DNA of 64,000 nt, taken from assembly GCA_016744995.1 (NCBI GenBank), contig JADGDG010000004.1, positions 1 to 64,000 on the forward strand, read 5' to 3'. Below are positions 1 through 26,673 of the stretch, in pieces. Position 1 is the stretch's first letter, and every line of letters starts with the position of its first letter. A program made the translations under genes and the position numbers. Source of the DNA: Gammaproteobacteria bacterium. Its GTDB lineage: Bacteria; Pseudomonadota; Gammaproteobacteria; GRL18. The notes beneath the pieces are model-generated. The model was not told the DNA's origin and did not search any database. It was given only the letters and a program-made list of their open reading frames with translations.

Positions 1-520
1 TCTCTAAAGTGCAAGCCCTGACTACTTTTTGCTTTTTTTATCGGTAGAAGTGGCTCACTCAAAGACAATGGGATTCAAGGATTGTCTGGAACGGGCTGAG
101 GGGACAGGAGTATGGTTAGAGATGATAAAGGAGGGGCATTGAGACCCATACACTGTGATGGAAATACTTTATGGGTATTCTAAAAGCTTCTATTTTTTTG
201 TTGGGCCTGAAGCACAATTAAAGACACTTTGCCAAAATCAAAAAAAGCATTGGGTTCGAGGGATCAATGCTTGTCGGAAATTGTTCAAAAGCAATCATCC
301 CATTCCCATCACCACTTAAAACCAATAATGTTTTAGAGTTTAGTCTACCTTGCAAAGCCTTGCAGACTTTCCCCTGTCTGACAGTCCAGATTTTATCCCT
401 ACCTGAACACATTGACACCTCTATTTCCTAATTTGTCCTTATTTTTTAGATAATCTCATTGCCAGCTAACTTTTTTGAAGTGAACTGAATTTTTTAGTGA
501 TTTTCAATTTCTCATTTTGT
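1..520. other. No recognisable gene
   Basis: I see no convincing gene here. A 66-codon reverse-strand frame (218-418) has no recognisable motif and no clear ribosome binding site. A forward frame that ends at about 146 (reading ...WLEMIKEGH, stop) could be the tail of a lost gene, but I cannot place it. The stretch ends at 521-530 with the bases GGGTGGCCTG, the right end of a dispersed repeat found elsewhere in the window. Confidence 0.4.
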
Positions 521-666: not shown

Positions 667-739
667 TGAACCGCACCTTGCGGATCCGCATGAGGGGTGG
701 TGTGGGGGCTGAGGGAGAGAAACCCTTGGCTACCCGATT
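667..739 (+). mobile_element. Group II intron 3' end (domains V and VI remnant)
   Basis: Directly after the maturase stop lies a strongly paired segment. It begins GAACCGC and closes with GGGTGGTG, with TTGCGG/CCGCA in the middle, which is the shape of the about 34-nt domain V of bacterial class C group II introns. A second hairpin follows (GGGGGCTGAGGG...CCCTTGGC) ending in CTACCCGATT, consistent with domain VI and the intron 3' end. The intron lies opposite to the neighbouring hsdS gene, and its 3' end directly meets the hsdS stop codon (TAA in AGCTAA). Group IIC-attC introns are known to insert into the bottom strand of attC sites. The junction sequence TAGCTG is what an attC of the type GTTAGCTG would leave. 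The assignment to class C is inference. Confidence 0.6.
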
Positions 740-2140
740 TAGCTGTTTTTGATTGCATTTCCAATGATCTTATCAATTGAATTACATTCTTTTTTAATCT
801 CTTCTTTTATTTTTTCTTGGGCATCTAATTCCATTTTTATCTCATCAACTATTCGCTCTTGTTCTTCTAATAAAACATCTAAAAGTGGAAACTCTTGTAT
901 TTGGCTTGGGAATATATTGGTATTGTTACCAAGTCCTTTTTTATTAATTTCAACAAGGTATTGAAAATAATTAGTTCTGAAATAATAATAAGCAAATAAA
1001 CAATTATAATCTTTAAGTCTGATTCTCATTGTGAAGTCAGCAAATATGCCTTGCAATTCTTCATCATCAATAATTGCTACCTTGCCAATTGTTCCCTCAC
1101 CAGAACGAGCTAAAAGAATATCGTCATTTTGTACTATTTTATTTTGATTATCGGTTGCAAACTTATCTGTAACCAGACGGGAATTGTCCTTTTCAAACTT
1201 CCAGTTTTTAATGGTTGCCATTGAAAGATAATAATATTCTCCATTATCATCATCGTATTGTGCAGGAGATATGCCTTTACCTAATACAATTGGCTCTAAT
1301 ATGAAGTCTTTAATTTTTTTACTGGTTTTACTTTTGAGTTCATCAAGGACAAATTGCCCCGCTTGACGGTGAAATTTAACGCTATTGCGTAAATCTTTGT
1401 TGTTACCAAAATTTGAAATATCAAGATCAAAAACTTTTATCGTTTTTAATGTTTCAAACTGTTCAAGACTAAAATTAAACTCTCTGGCAAAAACTCGATT
1501 GATAACCTCTTGAGGTTCTTTAATTTTAACTTTTAACTCTTTAATATTTTGTTCGATTGGTTCTATTTGAGAAGATATTTCATCTTGTATTGATTTTTCA
1601 ATATCATGTATTTTAATTCTTCCCAATTCATCTTTTGACAAATACTTTGATGTGAACAATATCTCAAAAATTGGTCTAAGATGGAGGTTAAAATACCAAA
1701 GTAAGAATTTTTTATTTACTTTGGTATCATCAAAATCCAAATGGAATACATTTTGATTTAAAAATATATTCCGATCTGTTAGAAATGACAATCCTACTGT
1801 CATAGCATTAGAAATAATCAAACTATTATTTTTAGCTTGATAAAGAGTTTTTAGTTCCTCGATTGCCAAATCTGTTATCTTACTTTTACAGATATTTTTT
1901 AACTGGAACAAATCAGTATCAACATCCTGCATTGTTAAAAAATCATTATCTCCATTCCAATAATCTTCATTGAACTTTGAGGGGGTTCTACCTGATTTTA
2001 TATCCGTTATAGTATTCTGATTTTTTAGAAGTCTTTTTATTCCTTATTCCTTGCCCATATAGAACAGAATAGTCTTTTAATCCAATTTTCGGTTCTATTG
2101 ATAATTCATGAAATTTAATATCAAAATGCCTTAATCCCAT
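739..2140 (-). pseudogene. Type I/IIB restriction specificity subunit (HsdS-like), frameshifted
   Basis: Two overlapping frames make up one specificity gene. The first starts at ATG 2140, overlapping the stop of the upstream methylase gene, and ends after 50 codons at TAG 1988. The second runs to 739 and contains KSGRTPSKFNEDYWNG then DNDFLTMQDV, the standard start of an HsdS target-recognition domain (GxTPS...YW.G...W/FLT..D). A second copy of such a domain begins near residue 200 of the downstream frame (GKGISPAQYDDDNGEYYYLS). Coiled helices separate the two domains and close the protein (EEQERIVDEIK...). The frames differ by one base, near an A6 run at about 2015-2025. Either the gene is broken, or the run slips, or the assembly has an error. 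It would direct the fused nuclease-methylase encoded upstream. Confidence 0.75.
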
Positions 2141-4512
2141 TTCACACACCTCAAGAAATCTAAAGCAGTTTCTTTTACGCCATCATTAACGATAACTTCA
2201 CCATTGGCATTTAAACGATAAAGCTCATTAGGCATTGGCTTTTCACCTCTTTTAGTTCGTTTGTAGCCTACATGGTCAACTTCTGCCATAAATATTGAGT
2301 AGTTTAATTCTTTGGCAACTTCACCGAATACCCACCAAATATTTACAAAGCCAAAAATGTCTTTAGTGTCTTTATCAAATTTGCACAGCTCGACTATTTC
2401 AGATTGATATTTATCTACCAGTTCTTTTAAGGATAACTGATCGTCATCTTTTTCAAGATAACCTTTCAATAATCGAACAATGTTATTTTTTCGTTTTTCT
2501 TTTGTTTCTTTGGAAATTACCCACTTTTTAGAAATATCTTTTTCTTTAATAAAATGCTCAATTTCTTTCTCACACCGAGTTTTTAACAAACTCCATTCAT
2601 TAGAGTATTTACTCCATAGATCATTCCATCGTTCTACTTCATCTGTTGTTTTCTTTTGAGCAAAAAGTAGGCTTGTTTTGGTTGATGTATAGGGTTCAAA
2701 AGTAACTTGCGGTAGTGAAACCACCGCTTTTACTTTGAAATATTTATAAACAAACAAACGAATATATTTGTTTTCGGTAGTGTCAAATACACTTTCAGGT
2801 AAAACAGCGGCAAAACGTCCATTCGGTTTTAGCAGTTGATACCATCTTTCTATAAATAAATTTTCTGAATTCTTTTTATCCCCAAAGACAAACTCTTTTT
2901 TTACATTCTTTTTAGTTTCGTTATCTAGATCTACGCTAAACGGAGGATTGGTGATAATGACATCGAATTGTTTATTAACCTCTTTATCTGCATACAGGTT
3001 ATCAGGCTCATATTGTTTGAGAAAGTTTGGAGCGGTTTCTTTGTCATAGAGCTTAAATGGTAATAAACCATCTTTTACAAAAATATTACTTGATCCGTCA
3101 CCGTGTAAAATCATATTGACTTTGGTGGCTGTGCCAAGATTAAAATTTATTTCACTGCCATAAATATAATCTTTAGCCCATTTGTTTTCTCTGTGATCGG
3201 GCAGAAACCATTGATCAAATTTATCCTCAATATCTCGGGTATCATCTAACTGATCCTTAAACCGATATTTTAGGTTTTTGGTGATAAATTTCATGTATTC
3301 AATTAAAAAAGTACCACTTCCTGCACTGGGATCAATAAGATAGGGAATCTCTAAATCATTATTCACACGGTCTAATGCTAATTTATCAAGTTGTAAGCCC
3401 CATAATAGGAATCGGACCACATTGATATGGGTAAAAAATTGCCCTTTGCTTTGTTTAAAACCTTCTCGAATGATACCCTCGAAAAAATCCCCTAAAATAT
3501 CCTTACCATCAAAACTGTTTTTCCCATCAACAAACGAATATTTCTCTAATTCTTGGACGGTATATTTTAGTTTTTCTAAGGAGAATTTGTTTTCATCTAT
3601 GACATAGGACTTTTTAAGCTTGTTTTCATCAATAATATTGAGGCGTTGCTTTAATGCCCTACGATAAAGGCTATTGATGCGGTCAAATAGTGCGTCCTTG
3701 GTTTCAAACTCTTCATCGCCTTTTTTTGCATAAGCAAAAATCTGGAAGTCATATTTTTCATTTTTCTTTTTTTCGCTTTCATCTTGAATTTTTGCCAAAA
3801 TCAAGTTTGTAAGGGATGAAAAAACCTCATTATCATCTGTACCGCCACCGTCCCACAAAACGTTATGTAGATTTTTTCTAAGGCTTTCTAATTGTTCATG
3901 GCTAAAGTTAGTCTCTAAATCCTTTTTACCACCTTTTATAAAGGGCTCTTTTTGTGCCTTCCCATATCTGGTTGGTAGTTCGTCCGCAAAGTTTCTTTCT
4001 TCTTTCCATGAATCAAAAGAGGTATATTTTTCATAATTAATGATGATACATTTATCTTTGATTTCATCATTAACAATATCGAATGAATAGAGAACAAGAT
4101 ATTTAACACCTATCCCTTGTCCTTTTTCTTGTGAGGCAAGATTAAACAGTTGTTTTTCTATAACTTCATCTTTGTCTTTTTCGTAGTCTTCTGGGCTTTT
4201 AAGTTCCATATAGAGAAAGGCATTGCCTTTCGCATCCCTGACAACAACATCAATTCTTGGCTTGTTTACCTTTGGCCTACCGATGTCATATTCTTTTTCA
4301 ATTTCGATATTTTCAGGTTTATAGCCAAGGATATTGACTAATTTTGTAAGAATATAAGCTCGGACAACCTCTTCATCACCTGTGATTTTCTTTATTTCAC
4401 GGGTTTGCTTGATTTCTTTCGTATAACTGATGGTTGATTTGTCAAAATCAAATTTTTCCACAGCTTTAATTTTCTGCTGATTCAAATATTTTTTTATTAC
4501 AGTTTTATCCAT
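2131..4512 (-). CDS. Fused restriction nuclease / N6-adenine DNA methyltransferase (type I-like or BcgI-like)
   Basis: This 793-residue protein joins a restriction-type nuclease domain to a methylase in one chain. The N-terminal part has the HsdR_N fold signature: RID with Asp88, then ELK with Glu103 and Lys105 (PD-(D/E)xK), then QLFNLA. A helical stretch and GQFFTH follow. The N6-adenine methylase has motif I DPSAGSGTF (394-402) and motif IV NPPF (522-525). No separate HsdR helicase gene is present. This matches the architecture of type IIB/IIG enzymes such as BcgI, where an RM subunit works with a separate specificity subunit. The ATG follows an AGGAAG ribosome site, and the coding region begins about 45 bases after an attC core site, so the RM pair may itself be an integron cassette. 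The gene is more AT-rich than its neighbours, which suggests transfer. Confidence 0.85.
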   Translation of the reverse strand: MDKTVIKKYLNQQKIKAVEKFDFDKSTISYTKEIKQTREIKKITGDEEVVRAYILTKLVNILGYKPENIEIEKEYDIGRPKVNKPRIDVVVRDAKGNAFLYMELKSPEDYEKDKDEVIEKQLFNLASQEKGQGIGVKYLVLYSFDIVNDEIKDKCIIINYEKYTSFDSWKEERNFADELPTRYGKAQKEPFIKGGKKDLETNFSHEQLESLRKNLHNVLWDGGGTDDNEVFSSLTNLILAKIQDESEKKKNEKYDFQIFAYAKKGDEEFETKDALFDRINSLYRRALKQRLNIIDENKLKKSYVIDENKFSLEKLKYTVQELEKYSFVDGKNSFDGKDILGDFFEGIIREGFKQSKGQFFTHINVVRFLLWGLQLDKLALDRVNNDLEIPYLIDPSAGSGTFLIEYMKFITKNLKYRFKDQLDDTRDIEDKFDQWFLPDHRENKWAKDYIYGSEINFNLGTATKVNMILHGDGSSNIFVKDGLLPFKLYDKETAPNFLKQYEPDNLYADKEVNKQFDVIITNPPFSVDLDNETKKNVKKEFVFGDKKNSENLFIERWYQLLKPNGRFAAVLPESVFDTTENKYIRLFVYKYFKVKAVVSLPQVTFEPYTSTKTSLLFAQKKTTDEVERWNDLWSKYSNEWSLLKTRCEKEIEHFIKEKDISKKWVISKETKEKRKNNIVRLLKGYLEKDDDQLSLKELVDKYQSEIVELCKFDKDTKDIFGFVNIWWVFGEVAKELNYSIFMAEVDHVGYKRTKRGEKPMPNELYRLNANGEVIVNDGVKETALDFLRCVKWD

Positions 4513-4554: not shown

Positions 4555-4637
4555 CAGCTAACGCTTCGCTTCATGGGCGCCGTTTCTGGCCGCGCAAGCG
4601 GACGGGGACGGTGTCCCATGGAAGCGTTTGTTAGCCG
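4555..4637 (-). other. attC recombination site (integron cassette)
   Basis: This 83-base imperfect palindrome lies at the 3' end of the HNH gene. Read on the reverse strand, it opens GGCTAACAAACGCTTCCATG and closes CATGAAGCGAAGCGTTAGCT, with inverted GCTAAC/GTTAGC core boxes. The gene's stop codon (TAA) is inside the first core box, a common layout in integron cassettes. The restriction gene begins directly after the distal core. Confidence 0.75.
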
Positions 4638-5308
4638 TTTTCATCTTCGTTGACCATAAATTTTAAGAGTTCGCTGTGTGCTGCAGCAATTAAACCAACG
4701 CATTTTTGCAAGCGAGCTTTAGGGTCAGAGCTGGAAGTTCTAGATCTCGAAGTACGGCCATCAAGCGCGCTAATTGAGCTTGAGATAACAGCGTTGGCGG
4801 CACCCATTGCGACGTAGGCATCAATCACGCTGCTTTTCAGATCCTCCTTTAAAATGGATATCGCTCCCTCGTCGATGGCCCTACTAAACTGAATATTACT
4901 GAAAAGGCATCCACCTTCTCGAAAATCTTGTATTGATGCTACTCTTTGATTGAATTCAAGTTCGTCTATCAAAGACTGCAAAGGGCCAACATCTCTGTGA
5001 TAAGCTTGAGGCGAGCTCAACAATGTTTCGGGACGTTCCTCACAAAGCTTCAACCAAGTCTCTTTATGCCCCTTCAATTCATTCGGTGTAAACTTGCGTC
5101 CTCTTGGATGTTTTACATTGTAGCTATGTATTTCCGCGTGACAGTCAAAACAGACGGGGATTGCGTTGTCTATGTCATCGGTACCACCATCTTCCTTGGG
5201 TTGGATGTGATCTGTCTCAATTTTCACTCCACAAAACCTGTAGCAAATACAGCATCGACGGCGACATTTAATGAGAAGCTGTGCTACTTCGGTCCGAGAG
5301 AATGACAT
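4631..5308 (-). CDS. HNH endonuclease-domain protein in an integron cassette
   Basis: This 225-residue protein has an N-terminal HNH nuclease domain (about residues 10-65). It shows CCIC (first zinc pair), TDHIQP with the catalytic His, an Asn in DNAIPVC, and CFDCHAEIH (second zinc pair and final His). The C-terminal 120 residues are not recognised; they include a Ser/Ala-rich stretch. The domain suggests DNA cleavage, perhaps defence, but no target can be read from sequence. The ATG is preceded by AAAGGA at about 5320. The gene is bounded upstream by a GTTAGCC core (5332-5338, read in reverse) and downstream by a full attC, so it is a one-gene integron cassette. It probably relies on a promoter in the upstream integrase/attI region. 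Confidence 0.8.
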   Translation of the reverse strand: MSFSRTEVAQLLIKCRRRCCICYRFCGVKIETDHIQPKEDGGTDDIDNAIPVCFDCHAEIHSYNVKHPRGRKFTPNELKGHKETWLKLCEERPETLLSSPQAYHRDVGPLQSLIDELEFNQRVASIQDFREGGCLFSNIQFSRAIDEGAISILKEDLKSSVIDAYVAMGAANAVISSSISALDGRTSRSRTSSSDPKARLQKCVGLIAAAHSELLKFMVNEDENG

Positions 5309-5767
5309 TTTCGGAGATCCTTTCTTCGGGCGGCTAACAGTTGATATGACCAGACTGCAGGTTAGGCCCTATATTCTCGTTTATTACGGCTGACGGCATA
5401 AAAATTTCGCCCGTCAGCGGCCTTATCTTTTCCGTAAGGTTAAATTTTATTGACTTATCTTTTTACCAGTATTATCTGTTTACTGCAACTAATTTCTCTA
5501 ATAACTTGATCTTCTTGGCAATTTTTTCTGTTTGATTAATTTTGACTCTTTATTTTTTCCTTTTTTGTCTTTAATAATGAAAAAAGAAACCCGCATGGCG
5601 TATTTTTCCTTTTCGTCCGTCATCCATTGAATACCTTAAATTGTCTATTTAGATTGATTAAAATCATTAATTTTATGAATCATTTTCAAATAATCTTTTT
5701 GATTATTGTTACATTAATCATTTTATGGCAAAATAGTTAAAATGTTTCATACAAGGAAGACATTATA
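5309..5767. promoter_or_regulatory. Possible attI and divergent promoter region of a decayed integron
   Basis: This gap lies between the reverse-strand HNH cassette and the forward-strand integrase-like pseudogene, which is where attI and the cassette promoter sit in an integron. Core-like boxes are GTTAGCC (reverse, 5332-5338) and GTTAGGC (forward, 5361-5367). An inverted repeat GCTGACGG/CCGTCAGC lies at about 5389-5423. The remaining AT-rich sequence could hold promoters, but none is certain. attI sites are poorly conserved, so the exact site is a guess. Confidence 0.4.
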
Positions 5768-6332
5768 ATGACTGACAAGGATGATATTGCTGTTGCAAAT
5801 TTTTGGGATAAATTTATTTTTATCTTACACTCAAAGAAGATATTACCCCCAATTGATCGCTGATATGTTATTCGTATTGAGGAATACATTGCTTTTTTTA
5901 AACAAAATCACCCAGCAAAACGGTTACGACAACATAACTTCAAAAGATATTGATGAATTTATTGCCTATGTTACACATAAAGATCATTTTGATTCTCTAA
6001 AATTTTATCAATTAATACATGCATTACAGCTCTTATTTACACGTCATCTTTATTTAGAATGGTCACTTAAATATGATTGGGACTATTTAAAAGCTTCTCA
6101 TCAAGAATCACCTTCATGTCATTCTGAGTTAATGCGGCAACCCCAGCAAACCCATTCAAGAAAATTTCCGCAAGTGAATAGGTCATCAGCGCTAGAACAA
6201 AATCGATCACTTTTTAAAAAATTAACCGCAGTTATCCGTCAGATGAATTACGGGGCATTGTGGATACCCATAACTTACCCTTTTGCTCAAATAATGGGTG
6301 GCCTGGATTACCATAAAAAAATCGCAGCCTAG
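5768..6332 (+). pseudogene. Integron-integrase-like tyrosine recombinase, N-terminal part only
   Basis: The frame from ATG 5768 reads MTDKDDIAVANFWDKF and IDR, then TGA (5861) exactly where this family has the Trp of RWYV. It continues YVIRIEEYIAFF. A one-base shift near 5940 moves to the frame that reads KDIDEFIAYV, FYQLIHALQLLF, KYDWDYLKASH and LFKKLTAVIRQMNYG. This is the N-terminal extension and first helix of long integron-type tyrosine recombinases, in which the sequence would continue as NYS.RTE.AY. The chain instead breaks off at NYG, where a dispersed palindromic repeat begins (6262). The catalytic domain with its R-H-R-Y residues is absent, so the gene is dead. Its orientation away from the HNH cassette is the normal integron arrangement. 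Confidence 0.7.
6262..6312. repeat. Dispersed palindromic repeat A, copy 1
   Basis: The sequence runs from TGGATACCCATAACTTA through TTTTGCTCAAATAATGGGTG to GCCTGGATTA. ACCCAT and ATGGGT pair across a loop of about 22 bases. Further copies or parts lie at 23161-23214, 26475-26560, 24089-24110 and 521-530. Here it cuts off the integrase pseudogene. Confidence 0.75.
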
Positions 6333-20376: not shown

Positions 20377-20708
20377 CCACAGACTCCACACAATAAAAAA
20401 TGAGAGATAAGAGAGGATTGGTAATCAAACACCATTTCTGGAATGCATCCATCTCTACCAGGCTTCAAAAAAAGTATAATAGCAATTAAGCATCCAAGCA
20501 AACTATGTTAGCTGCTTTAATATGCATTTCAAACCCGGCTATTTAAAAAACAAATAAAGAATTAAGAGCTAGAACAGCCATACAAACATTATGGTAACGT
20601 TATTATCAGTATAGCCTGTCCTTACGGATAACAACCCATAACTCAGGGTTCCGGCGGGGAGCTATCCCTTTACGGACAGAGGACTTTCAGATCCAGTTTC
20701 GTACCGAT
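20377..20708. other. Intergenic gap with a CTGTCC/GGACAG palindrome
   Basis: The 332-base stretch contains an imperfect inverted repeat at about 20617-20684 (CCTGTCCTTACGG and CCGTAAAGGGAT...CTGTCC when read on the two strands), plus GTTATCC/GTTATGG motifs. It may be a degraded attC after the 193-residue protein gene, but the core boxes do not fit well. No gene seen. Confidence 0.35.
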
Positions 20709-21290
20709 TTATTTCGGCGCACTGGGTGGCTTGTTAGTTTTTGTCAGGCGCTTGCCATACATCAATTCATATAACTCCTGTATAAATTTCAAAAATTCAT
20801 TTGAATCTTCAGGTGAGTTTAAAAGAGATGTTAGAAATATTTGATGTATTTTAGTGTATTTACGAGCGTGTTTATTGGAGTTTGTTATATTCTTTAAATA
20901 AAGCAATACATTTTCATGACTGAGTTGCGCATAATAAGCGTTGAACATTTTCCCAAGTACTTCCCTGTTACGGACATGAGCTTTTTTTAGCAGGTAAGAT
21001 TCTGATAAATCATCATGTTTATTCGTATTTTCCATCCGGTATAGTAAAAAACTATTGTATATTTGAGTATCGAAGTTTCCTGTCAAGGCCACGATTCTCA
21101 TTGTGTCAGATATTCTTTGGCTTTTTTCTCCTGCAGAATACGCTATATCCCTGGCTAACATTATTTTATAACCATCCAGGTATGATTCAATTCTTACTGA
21201 AGTGCTTTGGCCTGCTTCTGTGCTACCAACAAATACAATAGTAAAAAATATCGCAAGAAACAGATTAATTCTCTTCACTGTAATATCCAC
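20709..21290 (-). CDS. Exported protein of unknown function
   Basis: The protein has 193 residues with a clear signal peptide (about 1-26, RINLFLAIFFTIVFVGSTEA). The mature part is mainly helical and Lys/Tyr-rich, with SYLLKKAHVRNREVLGK and HENVLLYLKNITNSNKH. No domain is recognised. It should be periplasmic. A palindromic attC-like site ends 13 bases upstream of its start, so it looks like the next cassette in a reverse-strand array. A GTG four codons later is an alternative start. Confidence 0.7.
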   Translation of the reverse strand: MDITVKRINLFLAIFFTIVFVGSTEAGQSTSVRIESYLDGYKIMLARDIAYSAGEKSQRISDTMRIVALTGNFDTQIYNSFLLYRMENTNKHDDLSESYLLKKAHVRNREVLGKMFNAYYAQLSHENVLLYLKNITNSNKHARKYTKIHQIFLTSLLNSPEDSNEFLKFIQELYELMYGKRLTKTNKPPSAPK

Positions 21291-21302
21291 CTTTTAATTA
21301 CA

Positions 21303-21360
21303 TCCTAACATCCGGTTCAAGTGCCGGTTTACGGAGTCAGATTGCAGCAACTTGTTAGCA
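21303..21360 (-). other. attC-like site between two cassette genes
   Basis: Read on the reverse strand, it opens TGCTAACAAG and closes GGATGTTAGGATG, with inverted CTAACA/TGTTAG boxes 58 bases apart. The stop codon of the upstream gene (21355) is inside the first box, as at the HNH cassette. The inner arms pair only weakly. Confidence 0.55.
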
Positions 21361-21828
21361 TCTGCTGCGGACTTTCTTGATTTCATTAATTATTAAATCT
21401 CTATTCTTAGCCAACTTTACCCATTTGGGTAGGCGACTGATCTGACTTTTGTTACTCCAGCCTCCCTCATCTCGAACTTCTCTACTTCTTAGCTGTGCAG
21501 AAATAAAACTCTCCAGGAAATCAAGATGCTTATCATTATAAGCATACAAAATCCCTTGGCTTGTTTCTATTGTGTAAAACAATGGCTGATGAAAAAACCA
21601 ATCTTTATCAGCATGCATCATAATTCCATTTTCAGGTTGTTTTTGATCGAAATAACCGCAATTTGAACACACAAGTTTGCGCTCTACCTTATGAAGATTA
21701 CCCGATATCCATGGAACAGAGGGAACCACTTTAGCTTTAGAAGTACATTTTGGACAAACGACTAAAAACTCATCAGCAAAGTCATATCTGGAGCTAAAAT
21801 CATCTACAAATTCAGAACGAGAAGTCAT
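21355..21828 (-). CDS. Zinc-ribbon protein of a type common in integron cassettes
   Basis: The protein has 157 residues with an N-terminal zinc ribbon: CPKCTSKAKV (about residues 25-28) and CSNCGYF (54-57) form a four-Cys site of the TFIIB-like sort. The remainder (DWFFHQPLFYTIET, AYNDKHLDFLESFISAQLR) is not assigned. I recall similar proteins in cassette arrays of marine gammaproteobacteria, but function is unknown. The gene is bounded by attC-like sites on both sides, and its stop lies within the downstream core box. This is the best-preserved cassette of the second cluster. Confidence 0.75.
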   Translation of the reverse strand: MTSRSEFVDDFSSRYDFADEFLVVCPKCTSKAKVVPSVPWISGNLHKVERKLVCSNCGYFDQKQPENGIMMHADKDWFFHQPLFYTIETSQGILYAYNDKHLDFLESFISAQLRSREVRDEGGWSNKSQISRLPKWVKLAKNRDLIINEIKKVRSRC

Positions 21829-21841
21829 TGTTTTTTCCAGG

Positions 21842-21897
21842 TGCTAACGTTAGCATAATCCGCACGAGGTGCGAAATTGATGATTATTTTGTTGTAT
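21842..21897 (-). other. attC-like site upstream of the zinc-ribbon gene
   Basis: On the reverse strand it opens ATACAACAAAATAATC and closes CGTGCGGATTATGCTAACGT then GTTAGCAC. The arms ATAATC/GATTAT and CGCAC/GTGCG pair, with unpaired bases between, as in attC hairpins. It is about 56 bases long. Confidence 0.55.
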
Positions 21898-22003
21898 TAC
21901 TATCCGGGACTTATGGAAAATCTGCCAGCCCGGAAATTTTCTCTGATATACCAAAGTAAAAGAGCTGCTTATATAAACTCTCATGTAACTTTTCAGTCAG
22001 TTT

Positions 22004-22681
22004 CTATGTTTTCCCTACCTTTGTAATGCCTGCCTTTCTCAGAAACAACTCCAGTAATATTATAATAATTCCAACAAGGCTGATAATCAATAGCCCACGG
22101 ATCATTCTAATCCAGATACTATGATGGTAACAGGCAACAGTTTCTAATCCAAAAACTTCCTCATTATTAATAAATAATCGATAGGCATTACATTTCCATT
22201 CTGGAATACAGGATATCCAGGCTTTTACTTTTGTTCCCTTTTTAAGCCTGTTAGAAATCTGATCCAGCCTTGACGCACCAACATTGTAAGCAGAGATTTT
22301 AAAGCTTTTTGCTCCTGACTCTAATTCAACCCGTAAAAAAGTCTCACTTTTATTACCAGGCTTTATTAGTTTATGACTAATAACAATACCGTTGTTAAGC
22401 AATAAATCTGACTGTTCAGGTATTTCTTTTACAAAACTTAAACCAAACCAGCTTAAATGTACAATGATCAGAAGAATACTTCAAAAAAGCAGAATAAAAT
22501 AACCACAGGCGTTTTTTTGTAGCAAAAAGGAATAGCGCCAGTTAAATCGCAACCCAAGATATAGGACTAAAGCGCCTGATAATAAAAACCACCTGTTTAA
22601 ACTAATAAAAGTTGATAAAACCAGCAAGCCGCTTAATGTAAATAAAACACCTGCAATGCTATACGTTTTTGAATCAGGCAT
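22004..22681 (-). pseudogene. Membrane protein gene interrupted by an in-frame TGA
   Basis: A single frame of 226 codons begins at ATG 22681 and ends at 22004, with one TGA at 22481-22483. The N-terminal part (66 residues) has two membrane helices (KTYSIAGVLFTLSGLLVLS and WFLLSGALVLYLGL). After the TGA the frame continues SILLIIVHLSWFGLSF (a further helix), a soluble domain (SHKLIKPGNKSETFLRVELE, KVKAWISCIPEWKCNAY) and a final helix (GLLIISLVGIIIILLELFL). A GTTAGCA core lies just before the ATG, so this too was probably a cassette. The layout resembles DUF3592-like membrane proteins, but I am not sure. A single point mutation explains the break. Confidence 0.65.
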
Positions 22682-22715
22682 TTGCTAACAAAATCTCTCA
22701 ATTTATTTTTATTGC

Positions 22716-22922
22716 TTAATTCGGCTGGGATTTTGATAATCTGGAATTAATAAATACCTGTAAACTTCCGACTGTAGAGAAAAGTTCACCATCCACTTTA
22801 TCATCTTCCAGCTCGATCCCATAGCGTTCTTCCATCTCGGTAATAACGCCCATTAGCACCATATAATCAAATTCAGCAATTTTACTCAATATATTAGAAC
22901 TCTTATCAAATAACTATGCCCT
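22716..22922 (-). pseudogene. Remnant of an acyl carrier protein (exosortase-associated type)
   Basis: A reverse frame without a start reads LFDKSSNILSKIAEFDYMVL then GVITEMEERYGIELEDDKVD and GELFSTVGSLQVFI. This is the acyl carrier protein fold from helix II onward. The wording (DSMAV.GVIT.LEE.FG...DDDEIDG..F.TVGSL) is that of carrier proteins found with exosortase/PEP-CTERM loci. The Ser that would carry phosphopantetheine is Tyr here (DYM for DSM), and the N-terminus is missing, so it is non-functional. Assignment is by eye. Confidence 0.6.
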
Positions 22923-23239
22923 TTCACCTGGGAGCTTGTCCGAGAATGGACACCGTAGCGAGTGAAAGTTATTTTCAGACATTATTTTCTATCATTTGAT
23001 GCAAATAGTCACCCTGTTTAGTGTCCATCAATAAATTGATGGAAAACAGGACAAAAAGAGATTTTCCGCACCAGGATTTCTATTATCGCCCTTCCTGGCT
23101 GCAGAACATCATTTAAAAGGGGATGATTGCAGGTGATTGCGGAAGGTGATCGGAAGGTGATTGCGGACACCCATAACTTAATCCTTTTGCTCAAATAATG
23201 GGTGGCCTGAATTACTTGTTATATTTTACCAATCTAATC
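22923..23239. other. Gap filled with palindromes and repeat copies
   Basis: It holds two nested inverted repeats. The first is CTTTCAC...GTGAAAG at about 22920-22972. The second is CCTGTTT...AAACAGG enclosing CCATCAAT/ATTGATGG at about 23012-23050, related to repeat B. Then come reiterated GGTGATTGCGGA units (23123-23167) leading into repeat A. No gene is seen. Confidence 0.5.
23161..23214. repeat. Dispersed palindromic repeat A, copy 2
   Basis: TTGCGGACACCCATAACTTA, TCCTTTTGCTCAAATAATGG and GTGGCCTGAATTA; the CACCCAT/ATGGGTG arms pair. It lies just after the 3' end of the Sel1-repeat gene and is preceded by tandem TGATTGCGGA units. Confidence 0.75.
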
Positions 23240-23710
23240 TTACTGTTTTAATCTTTGTAGGACTTCAGATGCATCTTCAACATTGTCTTCGACTGCTTCT
23301 GAAATCATTTCAAAAGCTCTCCCAATATCATTAGGATAACCATTAGAACCATAATATAGGTTAATTCCAACTGATAATTTGGCGGGCCCAAAATTAAGAC
23401 CTATTGCTCTATCTAAGTAACGCTTGCCTGCCTCAACGTTTAATTCAACCATGTCACCAATAAAATATAGTGACGACAATCGATACATTGCCCCTGCCAC
23501 ATTTCCTTCTGCTGCTTTTACAAGTGAATCCACATATCTCTTATTAATATCATCATCTGATTCATTCCATTCAGCTAAACTAAATTTGGAATAATAATAA
23601 TGTGCATAAGGATCACCTATATCTAAATATGGCTTTATGTATTCGTAAAGCTTATTCATTGAACCTTCACGATAAATTTTGTCAGCCATTTCAATTGCTT
23701 TTTTATCCAC
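23240..23710 (-). CDS. Sel1-repeat (TPR-like) protein
   Basis: This 156-residue protein is built of Sel1-like helical repeats, seen as GNVAGAMYRLSSLYFIGD, AGKRYLDRAIGLNFGPAKLS and GRAFEMISEAVEDNVEDAS, spaced about 36 residues. No signal peptide is seen, so it is cytosolic. Sel1 proteins mediate protein-protein contacts. Some small ones serve as immunity proteins next to toxins, and a decayed possible toxin-like tail lies just upstream (23761-24086). That link is speculative. The stop is followed by repeat A. Confidence 0.75.
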   Translation of the reverse strand: MDKKAIEMADKIYREGSMNKLYEYIKPYLDIGDPYAHYYYSKFSLAEWNESDDDINKRYVDSLVKAAEGNVAGAMYRLSSLYFIGDMVELNVEAGKRYLDRAIGLNFGPAKLSVGINLYYGSNGYPNDIGRAFEMISEAVEDNVEDASEVLQRLKQ

Positions 23711-23760
23711 AGTATTTTTCCAATATATTTTATAAAGTCATAGAGTCTACAATCTGTAAA

Positions 23761-24086
23761 TTATGGAAATCTAAGGTTACCATCGTTATCAATACATCGC
23801 CATTGAGCATGATGTGTATCAATTGCGCCAATAGTTCTATTTGCCATTCGAATAGCGTTTCTTTTTGCCGTTTGAAAATCTCTACTCAGCCCCCAACCCC
23901 AACCAAACCTAGGTGGAAGTTCAGCAGATCGATTTAAATCCTGAATTCTTGCAATACAGGAAGTTCAACGCTTTTTTCTTGGAGGTCGAGGGACAGAAAT
24001 GTTACCTGAATCTTCTCTATTTCTTAAGTCTTCCACTTGAGTTTCAAGAACATCTTCAATCCTGGCAACAGAATTAGAATTTTCAC
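23761..24086 (-). pseudogene. Tail of an unidentified protein, with in-frame TGA
   Basis: One reverse frame without a start reads VARIEDVLETQVEDLRN, then PRPPRKKR, then TGA (23965-23967). It resumes as ELPPRFGWGWGLSRDFQTA, KRNAIRMANRTIGAIDTHHA, QWRCIDNDGNLRFP and a stop at 23761. The upstream end is cut at repeat A (24089). The short C-terminal domain resembles the tails of large secreted or polymorphic-toxin proteins in size and position, but I cannot name it. Confidence 0.35.
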
Positions 24087-24088
24087 GG

Positions 24089-24110
24089 CAAATAATGGGT
24101 GGCCTGAATT
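24089..24110. repeat. Dispersed palindromic repeat A, partial copy
   Basis: Only the right half is present (CAAATAATGGGTGGCCTGAA). It lies exactly between the cut 5' end of the 23761-24086 frame and an attC site. Confidence 0.65.
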
Positions 24111-24125
24111 GCACCCCTCCTAAAC

Positions 24126-24226
24126 AGATAACGCCTCAAACACTGGATTGATGAAGTTGGCAGCTTTTTTTGCGCAAGCAAAAATGGTGACAGCTTTACC
24201 AATTCAGCGTGCTTTGACTTGTTAAC
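24126..24226 (-). other. attC site after the 148-residue protein gene
   Basis: On the reverse strand it opens GTTAACAAGTCAAAGCACGC and closes CCAGTGTTTGAGGCGTTATC. The outer arms TAAC...TCAAAGCAC and GTGTTTGA...GTTA pair with one unpaired base, the hallmark of attC, and the length is about 100 bases. The stop of the upstream gene (24222) is inside the first box. Confidence 0.7.
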
Positions 24227-24668
24227 TGTGGCCTAGCAGACGCTCCAATTTAATATGGTATTCACTGTCACTACAATTGGTAGTGCCGCTACCCCACTTA
24301 TCATATAGATCATTAATTTCTTCATTTGGGGATTCTAATACTCCCCACTCATCATTTAGAAAATACCTAACGAGCACTTTCGATGCTTGCTGTACAGTAA
24401 GTCCACCATTAGCGAACAGGTTACAGACAACATCAAAGATAAATTCAGGTGAGCAATCGTAGTCTAAATCAAAGATATTACGCCTGAAATACTCCTTTAT
24501 TTCGTATACCGACTTTGACTCCCTAATAGACAACTCTAACAACTCATATTCGAGATTGTTTTCACCCAAGATATAGTTGTCCACTTCTGAAATAAAATCA
24601 GATTTATCTATAGCTTCTGCTTCCCATGCGATCCAACTTTTAGCAATTTCTTTAGGTATCTGCTTCAT
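24222..24668 (-). CDS. Small acidic cassette protein of unknown function
   Basis: The 148-residue soluble protein is acidic and helical, with YILGENNLEYELLELSIRES, FDVVCNLFANGGLTVQQASK and LVRYFLNDEWGVLESPNEEI. I see no signal peptide, membrane helix or metal motif. It resembles small DUF2247-like proteins in composition, but that is weak. attC-like sites lie on both sides, so it is a complete one-gene integron cassette on the reverse strand. There is no evident promoter of its own. Confidence 0.7.
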   Translation of the reverse strand: MKQIPKEIAKSWIAWEAEAIDKSDFISEVDNYILGENNLEYELLELSIRESKSVYEIKEYFRRNIFDLDYDCSPEFIFDVVCNLFANGGLTVQQASKVLVRYFLNDEWGVLESPNEEINDLYDKWGSGTTNCSDSEYHIKLERLLGHS

Positions 24669-24681
24669 GGGTAACTCGGAC

Positions 24682-24740
24682 AGTTAACAGCTTAGCGTTT
24701 ATATGATGTGCGAAGCATGGCATATAAACGTCTGTTGTGC
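24682..24740 (-). other. attC-like site upstream of the 148-residue protein gene
   Basis: On the reverse strand it opens GCACAACAGACGTTTATATG and closes CATATAAACGCTAAGCTGTT then AACT. The ACGTTTATATG/CATATAAACG stem is nearly perfect, and AAC/GTT core boxes flank it. It is 59 bases long. The gene that should precede it is gone; the insertion sequence region begins about 400 bases away. Confidence 0.6.
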
Positions 24741-25155
24741 GAAACCGCGGGCTTCACACTCGGTTTATCTTATTGTAACTCTTTATGGATTTTGTTTTTT
24801 CAAACTCAAGGCTCGCCATTCACTATTTGAGTGTAGCCGTTGATTATACCCAATCAACTTCAAAATACAGTTTTAAGCAAGCCCTAAAAGCAATTTTTCT
24901 GCCTTATAAAAATGGCCTAATAGAAGGCTATTAAATCATTTTCATGCCTTGAACAATCACTTTTATGACTCACTTAAATTCTGCATTTAGAAGTATCATG
25001 GGTATATAAGGTGGGTTCTTTACATTCTCTGAGATCATTTCCTTATAAACCTGAGTGACTTTGACTCTATTATGCCTCTTTTCCTTGTTTTGGACAATAC
25101 CAGCCTCTCAATGCCAAGGCATTGATTAAAAAAGCATTAAAATAATCGACTTCTT
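24741..25155. other. No gene seen
   Basis: This 415-base AT-rich stretch lies between the last attC-like site and the insertion sequence. No frame with recognisable coding content was found; short weak hairpins only. Confidence 0.5.
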
Positions 25156-26460
25156 AGGGCTGTGGAAATAATAAAATTTCCAATTTAAAGATAGCATATT
25201 AGGCTGAATTTTTTTAAAATTAACTTATCGAAATCACAGAAGAATGTAATGTAGAAGAGCAAGAATTATGGAAAAATACCGCTAACGCCTTAAATGGCCC
25301 TAATCGTCGTAAATTTATGGCTGGTATTGTTAAATTATTAGGTAGAGGTGGACAAAGTTTCGCCGAGCAAGTGTTGGGCTGGTGTCGCCCAACAATAAGA
25401 AAGGGACTTAAAGAATTAGCCAGTGGTACAGATGTTATTGACCGCTTTACAGATAGGGGTCGTAAACCAATAGAGGCTAAATTACCACTCATACGAGACC
25501 ATATACGTCTGATTGTAGAGCCATTAGGTCAAACGGATCCGACCTTCAGGAGCACCAGAACGTATATTCCACTGACAGCGTCTTCTGTTCGGAAAAAGTT
25601 AATCACTGATTTCAATTACCACTCAGATGAGTTGCCGACTGCACGGACTATTTCAAGTAAATTAAAGGCATTAAACTACAGGCCACAAAAAGTAGCTAAG
25701 TGTCGTCCACTTAAAAAAATTCCTGAAACAGATGCCATATTTGAACGTCTGCATCAGATTAATAAGAGATCCGTTTTAGAAAATGGCGTGCTTAGAATTT
25801 CAATTGATTCCAAGGCTACGGTTAATGTTGGCTTGTTTTCAAGGGGTGGGAAAAGTCGACAGATAAATAAAGCTTATGATCATGATTTTGAACCCAATGA
25901 AAAATTAACGCCCTTTGGCTTGTTGTTGCCAGAGACAGGTGAAAGCTTTCTTTGGTTTTCCAGTAGTAAGGTGACGGCAGATTTTATGGCGGACAGATTA
26001 GAAGAAATTTGGTCAAAACTGAACACTAAATATACCATTAATAAACTGCTTATAAATGCTGACAACGGGCCTGAATGTAGCGGTATCAGGAAACAGTGGC
26101 TTAAACGTTTAGTTGAGTTTAGCCAGAATAAAGGAATTGAAATTCAACTGGCCTATTATCCTCCTTATCACAGCAAGTATAATCCTGTTGAGCGTTTGTG
26201 GGGTGTATTAGAAAACCATTGGCGCGGTGAATTGCTTGAAACGGTACAAAAAACATTGGGACTGGCACGAAGCATGACATTCAAATCAATAAAGCCTTCA
26301 GTTAAATTGGTTAAGAAAATTTATAAAAGTGGCGTCACTCTCACAAAACAAGAGCTGGAAAAAGTAGAAAAAAATATTACACGGGAAGAGGGTCTGGAAA
26401 AATGGTTTTTTACTATTAAAGTTTAGCTGAAAATGGAAACTTTATTTTTTCCAAGGCCCT
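25156..26460 (+). mobile_element. ISAzo13-family insertion sequence
   Basis: The 1305-base element is bounded by imperfect inverted repeats of 26 bases: left AGGGCTGTGGAAATAATAAA (25156 on), right, read in reverse, AGGGCCTTGGAAAAAATAAA (26460 backwards). By eye 22 of 26 positions agree. One long transposase frame lies inside. No clear target duplication was identified. Repeat A copy 3 starts 15 bases beyond the right end. Confidence 0.75.
25317..26426 (+). CDS. ISAzo13-family transposase, normal start lacking
   Basis: The 369-residue transposase has an N-terminal helix-turn-helix (GGQSFAEQVLGWCRPTIRKG) and a DDE nuclease core. Visible acidic motifs are ISIDSKATVNVG, LLINADNGPECSG and YPPYHSKYNPVERLWG. 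These are the signature of the ISAzo13 (Rhodopirellula-type DDE) group. The same frame stays open upstream to 25224 (IEITEECNVEEQELWKN, LNGPNRRKF) and clearly encodes family sequence, but contains no ATG, GTG or TTG before the TAA at 25221. The true start may have been lost, so ATG 25317, which has no ribosome site, may not yield a working enzyme. Confidence 0.85.
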   Translation: MAGIVKLLGRGGQSFAEQVLGWCRPTIRKGLKELASGTDVIDRFTDRGRKPIEAKLPLIRDHIRLIVEPLGQTDPTFRSTRTYIPLTASSVRKKLITDFNYHSDELPTARTISSKLKALNYRPQKVAKCRPLKKIPETDAIFERLHQINKRSVLENGVLRISIDSKATVNVGLFSRGGKSRQINKAYDHDFEPNEKLTPFGLLLPETGESFLWFSSSKVTADFMADRLEEIWSKLNTKYTINKLLINADNGPECSGIRKQWLKRLVEFSQNKGIEIQLAYYPPYHSKYNPVERLWGVLENHWRGELLETVQKTLGLARSMTFKSIKPSVKLVKKIYKSGVTLTKQELEKVEKNITREEGLEKWFFTIKV

Positions 26461-26474
26461 TAAATCAATTCTGT

Positions 26475-26560
26475 GGGATGATTGCGGATGGGATGATTGC
26501 GGACACCCATAACTTATCCTTTTGCTCAAATAATGGGAAATAATGGGTGGCCTGAATTAC
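26475..26560. repeat. Dispersed palindromic repeat A, copy 3
   Basis: Two GGGATGATTGCGGA units lead into CACCCATAACTTATCC, then CTCAAATAATGGGAAATAAT, GGGTGGCCTGAATTA. This copy has a 9-base duplication (AATGGGAAA) in the right arm. Confidence 0.75.
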
Positions 26561-26673
26561 TGCGATTTTCTGAAATTGCAGGACTCATTGGTGGTGCTAA
26601 GCCACACCCTGACATTAGCATCGTTGCTACTATTACAATTGTTTTCGTTATATTTCTCATTGTGTTTCCTTAG
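26560..26673 (+). pseudogene. 3' end of a small membrane protein, cut at repeat A
   Basis: A forward frame of 37 codons without a start begins exactly where repeat A ends. It reads LRFSEIAGLIGGAKPHPD, then ISIVATITIVFVIFLIVFP, stop (26671). The tail is a hydrophobic helix. The stop is followed by GGCTAACAAG, the opening of an attC-type core, so it may be the end of a cassette inserted in the opposite direction to the others. No right half of the attC was seen. Confidence 0.4.

Follow-up and report, generated by a model that had tools for sequence, protein, structure and literature searches.

A probable sedentary chromosomal integron with a dead integrase gene and one retained cassette in a gammaproteobacterial genome

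Positions 4555–6332 of the window (the whole 64,000-nt stretch of DNA analyzed here, which makes up the opening 64 kb of contig C23 in a 5.18-Mb genome of 65 contigs, 95.8% complete) very probably hold a sedentary chromosomal integron whose integrase is dead and which has retained one captured cassette. Integrons are gene-capture devices of bacteria, and dead ones are common. The locus is ordinary in kind, one more well-documented case of what would be integrase death after cassette capture, for which intact congeners serve as a baseline. Its interest lies in two further features, the association of integron remains with a dispersed palindromic repeat, and the tandem core-binding domains that its integrase subfamily probably has.

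Cassette, attC and attI

The gene cassette spans 776 bp (4562–5337, minus strand; G^TTAGCC ... G^TTAGCT), with the end of attI homology at its 5′ edge and an attC at its 3′ edge. It contains an intact ORF of 225 aa (4631–5308, minus strand), bordered upstream by GTTAGCC at 5338–5332 of the minus strand, whose stop codon falls inside the R″ of the attC, as is usual for tightly packed integron cassettes. The product is HNH endonuclease-like; its HNH domain (PF01844) scores 37.6 bits against a Pfam cut-off of 21.4, which places it among predicted HNH endonucleases. Its closest plasmid relative matches at 43% over residues 1–129. It may be a defense nuclease, as hinted by a weak type IV restriction match and by a neighboring restriction–modification pair.

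The attC (4556–4636, minus strand; R″ GGCTAAC at 4636–4630, R′ GTTAGCT at 4562–4556) is an imperfect palindrome, GGCTAACAAACGC...GCGTTAGCT, that forms the downstream border of the HNH ORF. It shows pairing of both the R″/R′ and the L″/L′ arms, extrahelical bases, a variable center, the GTTRRRY core, and end motifs common to other attC sites of the genus. A more stable fold is expected on the bottom strand of an attC; here the bottom strand (window plus) reaches a z-score of −5.05, compared to −4.04 for the other strand, and each beats 200 of 200 shuffles. We trained a covariance model (R1) on eight other attC sites, one further along the window (24126–24227), two elsewhere in the genome and five in congeners, leaving out the site at 4556–4636. 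R1 was built on trimmed arms, because MAFFT misaligned the arms when applied to whole attC sites, and one spacer base was removed in two of the training sites. The attC arms covary, with both sides changed in 11 of 17 pairs and the observed score reached by none of 500 shuffles. A preliminary description of this DNA had proposed an attC at 4555–4637, and R1, although not trained on it, recovers this site at 29.5 bits (E = 5.8e-5), compared to a best background score of 16.4 bits in 79 unrelated loci that total 1.3 Mb. An enlarged model (R2), whose training set includes the site, gives it 43.1 bits; the best score of R2 in the same 79 unrelated loci is 22.5 bits. We had dropped a regex-and-fold attC scan in favor of the covariance model, its background in shuffled sequence having equaled the signal. 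A search of the window with Rfam produced no match at gathering thresholds.

The same description had placed attI in the gap between the cassette and the diverging gene, and here too the sequence bears it out. The 430-bp interval (5338–5767, minus strand), comprising attI and the intI–attI intergenic region, aligns up to the cassette edge with its counterparts in the congeneric integrons L010 and L012; identity to L010 is 72% over 336 bp. The alignment includes a nearly invariant block around TATGCCGTCAGCC and, within the conserved attI block, a hairpin at 5389–5418 (GCTGACGGCAT..CCCGTCAGC). The last bases common to the window, L010 and L012 are ACTGTTA, beyond which the alignment enters different cassettes; homology to other attI regions thus ends at the GTTAGCC of 5338–5332 (minus strand). 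The junction AACTGTT also terminates the corresponding region at two other intI remnants of the same genome, on contigs C14 and C9. We therefore assign an attI here, as a site beside intI that is homologous among related integrons and receives the first cassette at its G^TT.

Because the attI and attC boundaries are exact, we infer that the HNH cassette was captured at attI by an intact IntI. In the most likely course, this enzyme would have folded the circular cassette's attC on its bottom strand and joined the cassette at the attI G^TT, leaving it in first position. The cassette could instead have been inserted in trans by a foreign integrase after the death of intI, a possibility that we consider unlikely. 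It would fit the well-preserved attC and intact cassette ORF beside a heavily decayed intI, the presence of intact IntI in congeners, and the attC end motifs shared within the genus. However, no intact IntI was found in the genome: a TIGR02249 search yields none at E ≤ 1e-40, whereas IntI is present in 11 of the 15 congeners (an intact intI might lie unassembled, because the genome is 95.8% complete). Moreover, selection may act on cassette genes but not on intI, which could by itself leave an intact cassette beside a decayed integrase gene. After capture by the once intact IntI and the subsequent loss of this enzyme, the HNH gene remains open but would no longer be movable from within, and its attC could serve an IntI acting in trans.

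On the far side of the attC, 43 bp beyond it, lies the restriction–modification pair (739–4512, minus strand), consisting of a 793-aa protein with HSDR_N_2 and N6 methylase and a 397-aa specificity subunit, which we take to be arranged like BcgI-type systems. We treat it as a neighbor, not assigned as a cassette. A search with R2 found no second attC from this pair to the start of the contig, which coincides with window base 1; one attC flanks attI here, and the far end, beyond window base 1, is off the contig. Also at the contig start, a protein similar to the 339-aa product of L006 (208–1227) has its C-terminal end at 155–319 (plus strand); by eye it resembles REP-type transposases, and it has no Pfam match. 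The neighboring alkaline phosphatase gene was used in searching for an empty site; its nearest relative (L070, 72%) has different neighbors and so yields no empty site.

The broken integrase gene and its relatives

The intI pseudogene (5768–6254, plus strand) retains the N-terminal extension and the beginning of the IntI core. The preliminary description gave the right extent for the feature as a whole (4555–6332), but its intI start at 5781 must be moved to the ATG at 5768. Codon 32 of this frame is TGA (5861–5863), which had been thought to replace a family Trp, and it does sit at the Trp of the RWYV motif, a nearly invariant column of the family. A second lesion, a frameshift, lies near 5938. 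The catalytic half had further been described as lost at a repeat. In agreement, homology to the L010 IntI ends at L010 residue 162 (window 6254), and a palindromic repeat (GGATACCCATAAC..AAATAATGGGTGGCCTG; 6260–6308, plus strand) begins at 6260; this repeat DNA stands where the whole catalytic part, ∼300 C-terminal residues, is missing. With the stop codon, the frameshift and the catalytic loss, the locus does not have the intact intI beside attI of a complete functional integron.

Identification of the remnant rests on its relatives, because NCBIfam and PHROGs contain no model that the remnant matches by itself; it matches Pfam SAM_4 only below the cut-off, and the region that would be recognized by the IntI model TIGR02249 is deleted. 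It is 75% identical to the congeneric intI of L010 and 53% to that of L012. The search for an intact copy among relatives that had been suggested was successful with L012, whose gene encodes 461 aa. Residues 149–461 of L012 score 454.6 bits with TIGR02249 (cut-off 265), which a second relative also passes with 364.7 bits, and residues 154–461 align with Vibrio IntI4 (PDB 2a3v), the best PDB match, which is without the 150-residue N-terminal extension. In one congener (L029), a long intI truncated where its contig stops diverges from a cassette array with three attC sites, which is the ancestral layout in the same divergent geometry as in the window. The closest congeneric intI (L010, position 2308) is itself frameshifted near its C-terminus, and integrase decay is therefore recurrent in the genus.

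It is most improbable that the broken gene encoded a tyrosine recombinase of a phage, ICE or transposon, unconnected with integrons, next to which the cassette lies by chance. Although the remnant is without the IntI-specific patch and its Pfam match is the generic SAM_4, relatives with the same extension have a full IntI core, the sequence upstream of it shows homology to genuine intI–attI regions as far as the cassette boundary, and the extension has no match in phage or plasmid records. A match to a phage integrase family, the result that the preliminary description had named as counting against it, was thus looked for in the remnant and in its extension and not found, and the relatives proved to be integron integrases. 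As for a live intI, in which the TGA would code for Trp and the breaks would be artifacts of the assembly, the exact position of the TGA at the conserved Trp and the 65-contig assembly would suit it, but we can give it hardly any credence in view of the additional frameshift, the replacement of ∼300 C-terminal residues by repeat DNA, and the breakage of the three other intI genes of the genome. For a dead integrase, the later decay of intI would have included deletion of the catalytic part to a junction in the dispersed palindromic repeat, with the TGA and the frameshift present as well.

Other integron remains and the palindromic repeat

We found four dead intI genes in this genome and no full-length intI. 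In addition to the window gene, dead long-N intI genes are present on C14 (L034, 1435–1683), C9 (L035, 9190–9700) and C56 (L049, 3388–3640), the last adjoining an attC. The upstream regions of the C14 and C9 remnants are 92% identical. By identity, the window remnant groups with L010 and L012, the C14 and C9 remnants with L028 and L013, and the C56 remnant with L028 and L030, which means that no fewer than two integron lineages, and probably three, have died in this genome. Two tyrosine recombinases on C56 (TIGR02249 scores of 115 and 108 bits) were rejected as IntI for want of the IntI patch; judging by their arrangement, we take them to be short partners of IS91-type transposases.

At E ≤ 0.01, R2 retrieves at least 21 attC sites in the genome, and sites in at least 13 of the 16 genomes of the genus. 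A second attC in the window (24126–24227, minus strand), a training member for both R1 and R2, lies 20 kb away, adjoins a repeat copy and is separate from the integron described here. Together with a series of small minus-strand ORFs at 20700–24800, most of which lack a Pfam match, it has the look of additional cassettes that have no integrase. The near-complete genome of one congener (G013:C1) has ∼19 attC sites, mostly scattered single sites far apart on the chromosome, and two IntI genes above the TIGR02249 cut-off.

The repeat that adjoins the window intI (6260–6306) matches further copies in the window at 23163–23216 and 26494–26561, and another repeat site lies at 24090–24113. Its 13-base core, AATGGGTGGCCTG, has eight copies in the genome, compared to 0–1 in each of the 15 congeners; as a control, the reversed core has no occurrence in the genome. 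For four of the eight copies, an attC or intI remnant is no more than 200 bp away, and such surroundings account for 0.25% of the genome's length (binomial tail 3e-9); the core was picked after its sighting at the window intI, and with that copy set aside the count is three of seven. The dead intI at C56:3388–3640 also stops 39 bp short of a repeat copy. Enrichment at integron remnants suggests a route of integrase loss. A preference of the repeat for integrons is likewise a suggestion, because dispensable DNA may simply gather both repeats and dead integrons. As a separate observation, one repeat copy in the window is found just downstream of an ISAzo13-type transposase gene (25317–26426, plus strand; PF07592, 222 bits).

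Pseudogenes of intI ("pseudo-integrons") are treated in passages of Nemergut et al. 2008 (PMC2426708), according to which nearly one third of intI genes are dead and over 20% of the lineages that bear integrons have more than one intI. Like the pseudo-integrons of those passages, the intI described here has been inactivated by stop codon, frameshift and deletion; unlike them, as they are presented there, it is one of four dead intI genes in a genome where none was found alive, and two of the four end in or beside one lineage-specific repeat. Cassettes in CALINs (attC clusters without integrase) are movable in trans (PMC9668308). The locus is similar in that an attC-bounded cassette has been left without integrase; however, it retains attI and an intI remnant and has a single attC, whereas a CALIN comprises at least two without intI.

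The N-terminal extension of long IntIs

An N-terminal extension had been recognized in the broken gene and ascribed to integron-type recombinases; it is indeed integron-type, but marks one IntI subfamily instead of integron integrases in general. This long-IntI subfamily, with an extra DNA-binding-like domain, has been little studied. In the 13 proteins that we compared, the extension is about 120–140 residues long with the motifs FWDxYI, RWYV, DWQFxQ and HxxxAR. The window gene belongs with these long-N IntIs, being homologous across the entire extension, with motifs partly diverged in its branch. The extension occurs in 27 of the 274 sampled genomes of the class (∼10%), this one included; a search of viral contigs for an intact long IntI found none.

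A profile of the extension is collinear with these proteins' own core-binding domain (hhalign probability 88%, E = 3e-6), and 9 of the 13 members weakly match Pfam Phage_int_SAM_4. These comparisons lead us, with moderate confidence, to the view that two core-binding domains stand in tandem in long IntIs, the extension probably being a diverged second one, and this evidence is a directly testable by-product of our analysis. The first of the two domains perhaps provides an extra grip on attI or attC. A broader proposal combines both features of interest, such that long IntIs would be a distinct IntI class with tandem core-binding domains, and the repeat, in this lineage, would have had a preference for integrons, eliminating integrases and stranding ∼21 attC sites; we offer it tentatively, and would sooner expect it to fail than to hold.

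Nemergut et al. 2008 (PMC2426708) include a Clade 15 of IntI, called deltaproteobacterial (its members being mostly Deltaproteobacteria), that in the passages concerned is ∼120 aa longer through "gene fusion". The extra part is similar in size to the extension reported here, which we also find in 7 of 79 genomes of the phylum sampled around a Desulfobacterales locus. Those passages do not give the position or nature of the Clade 15 extra part; in the proteins described here it is N-terminal and resembles a second core-binding domain.
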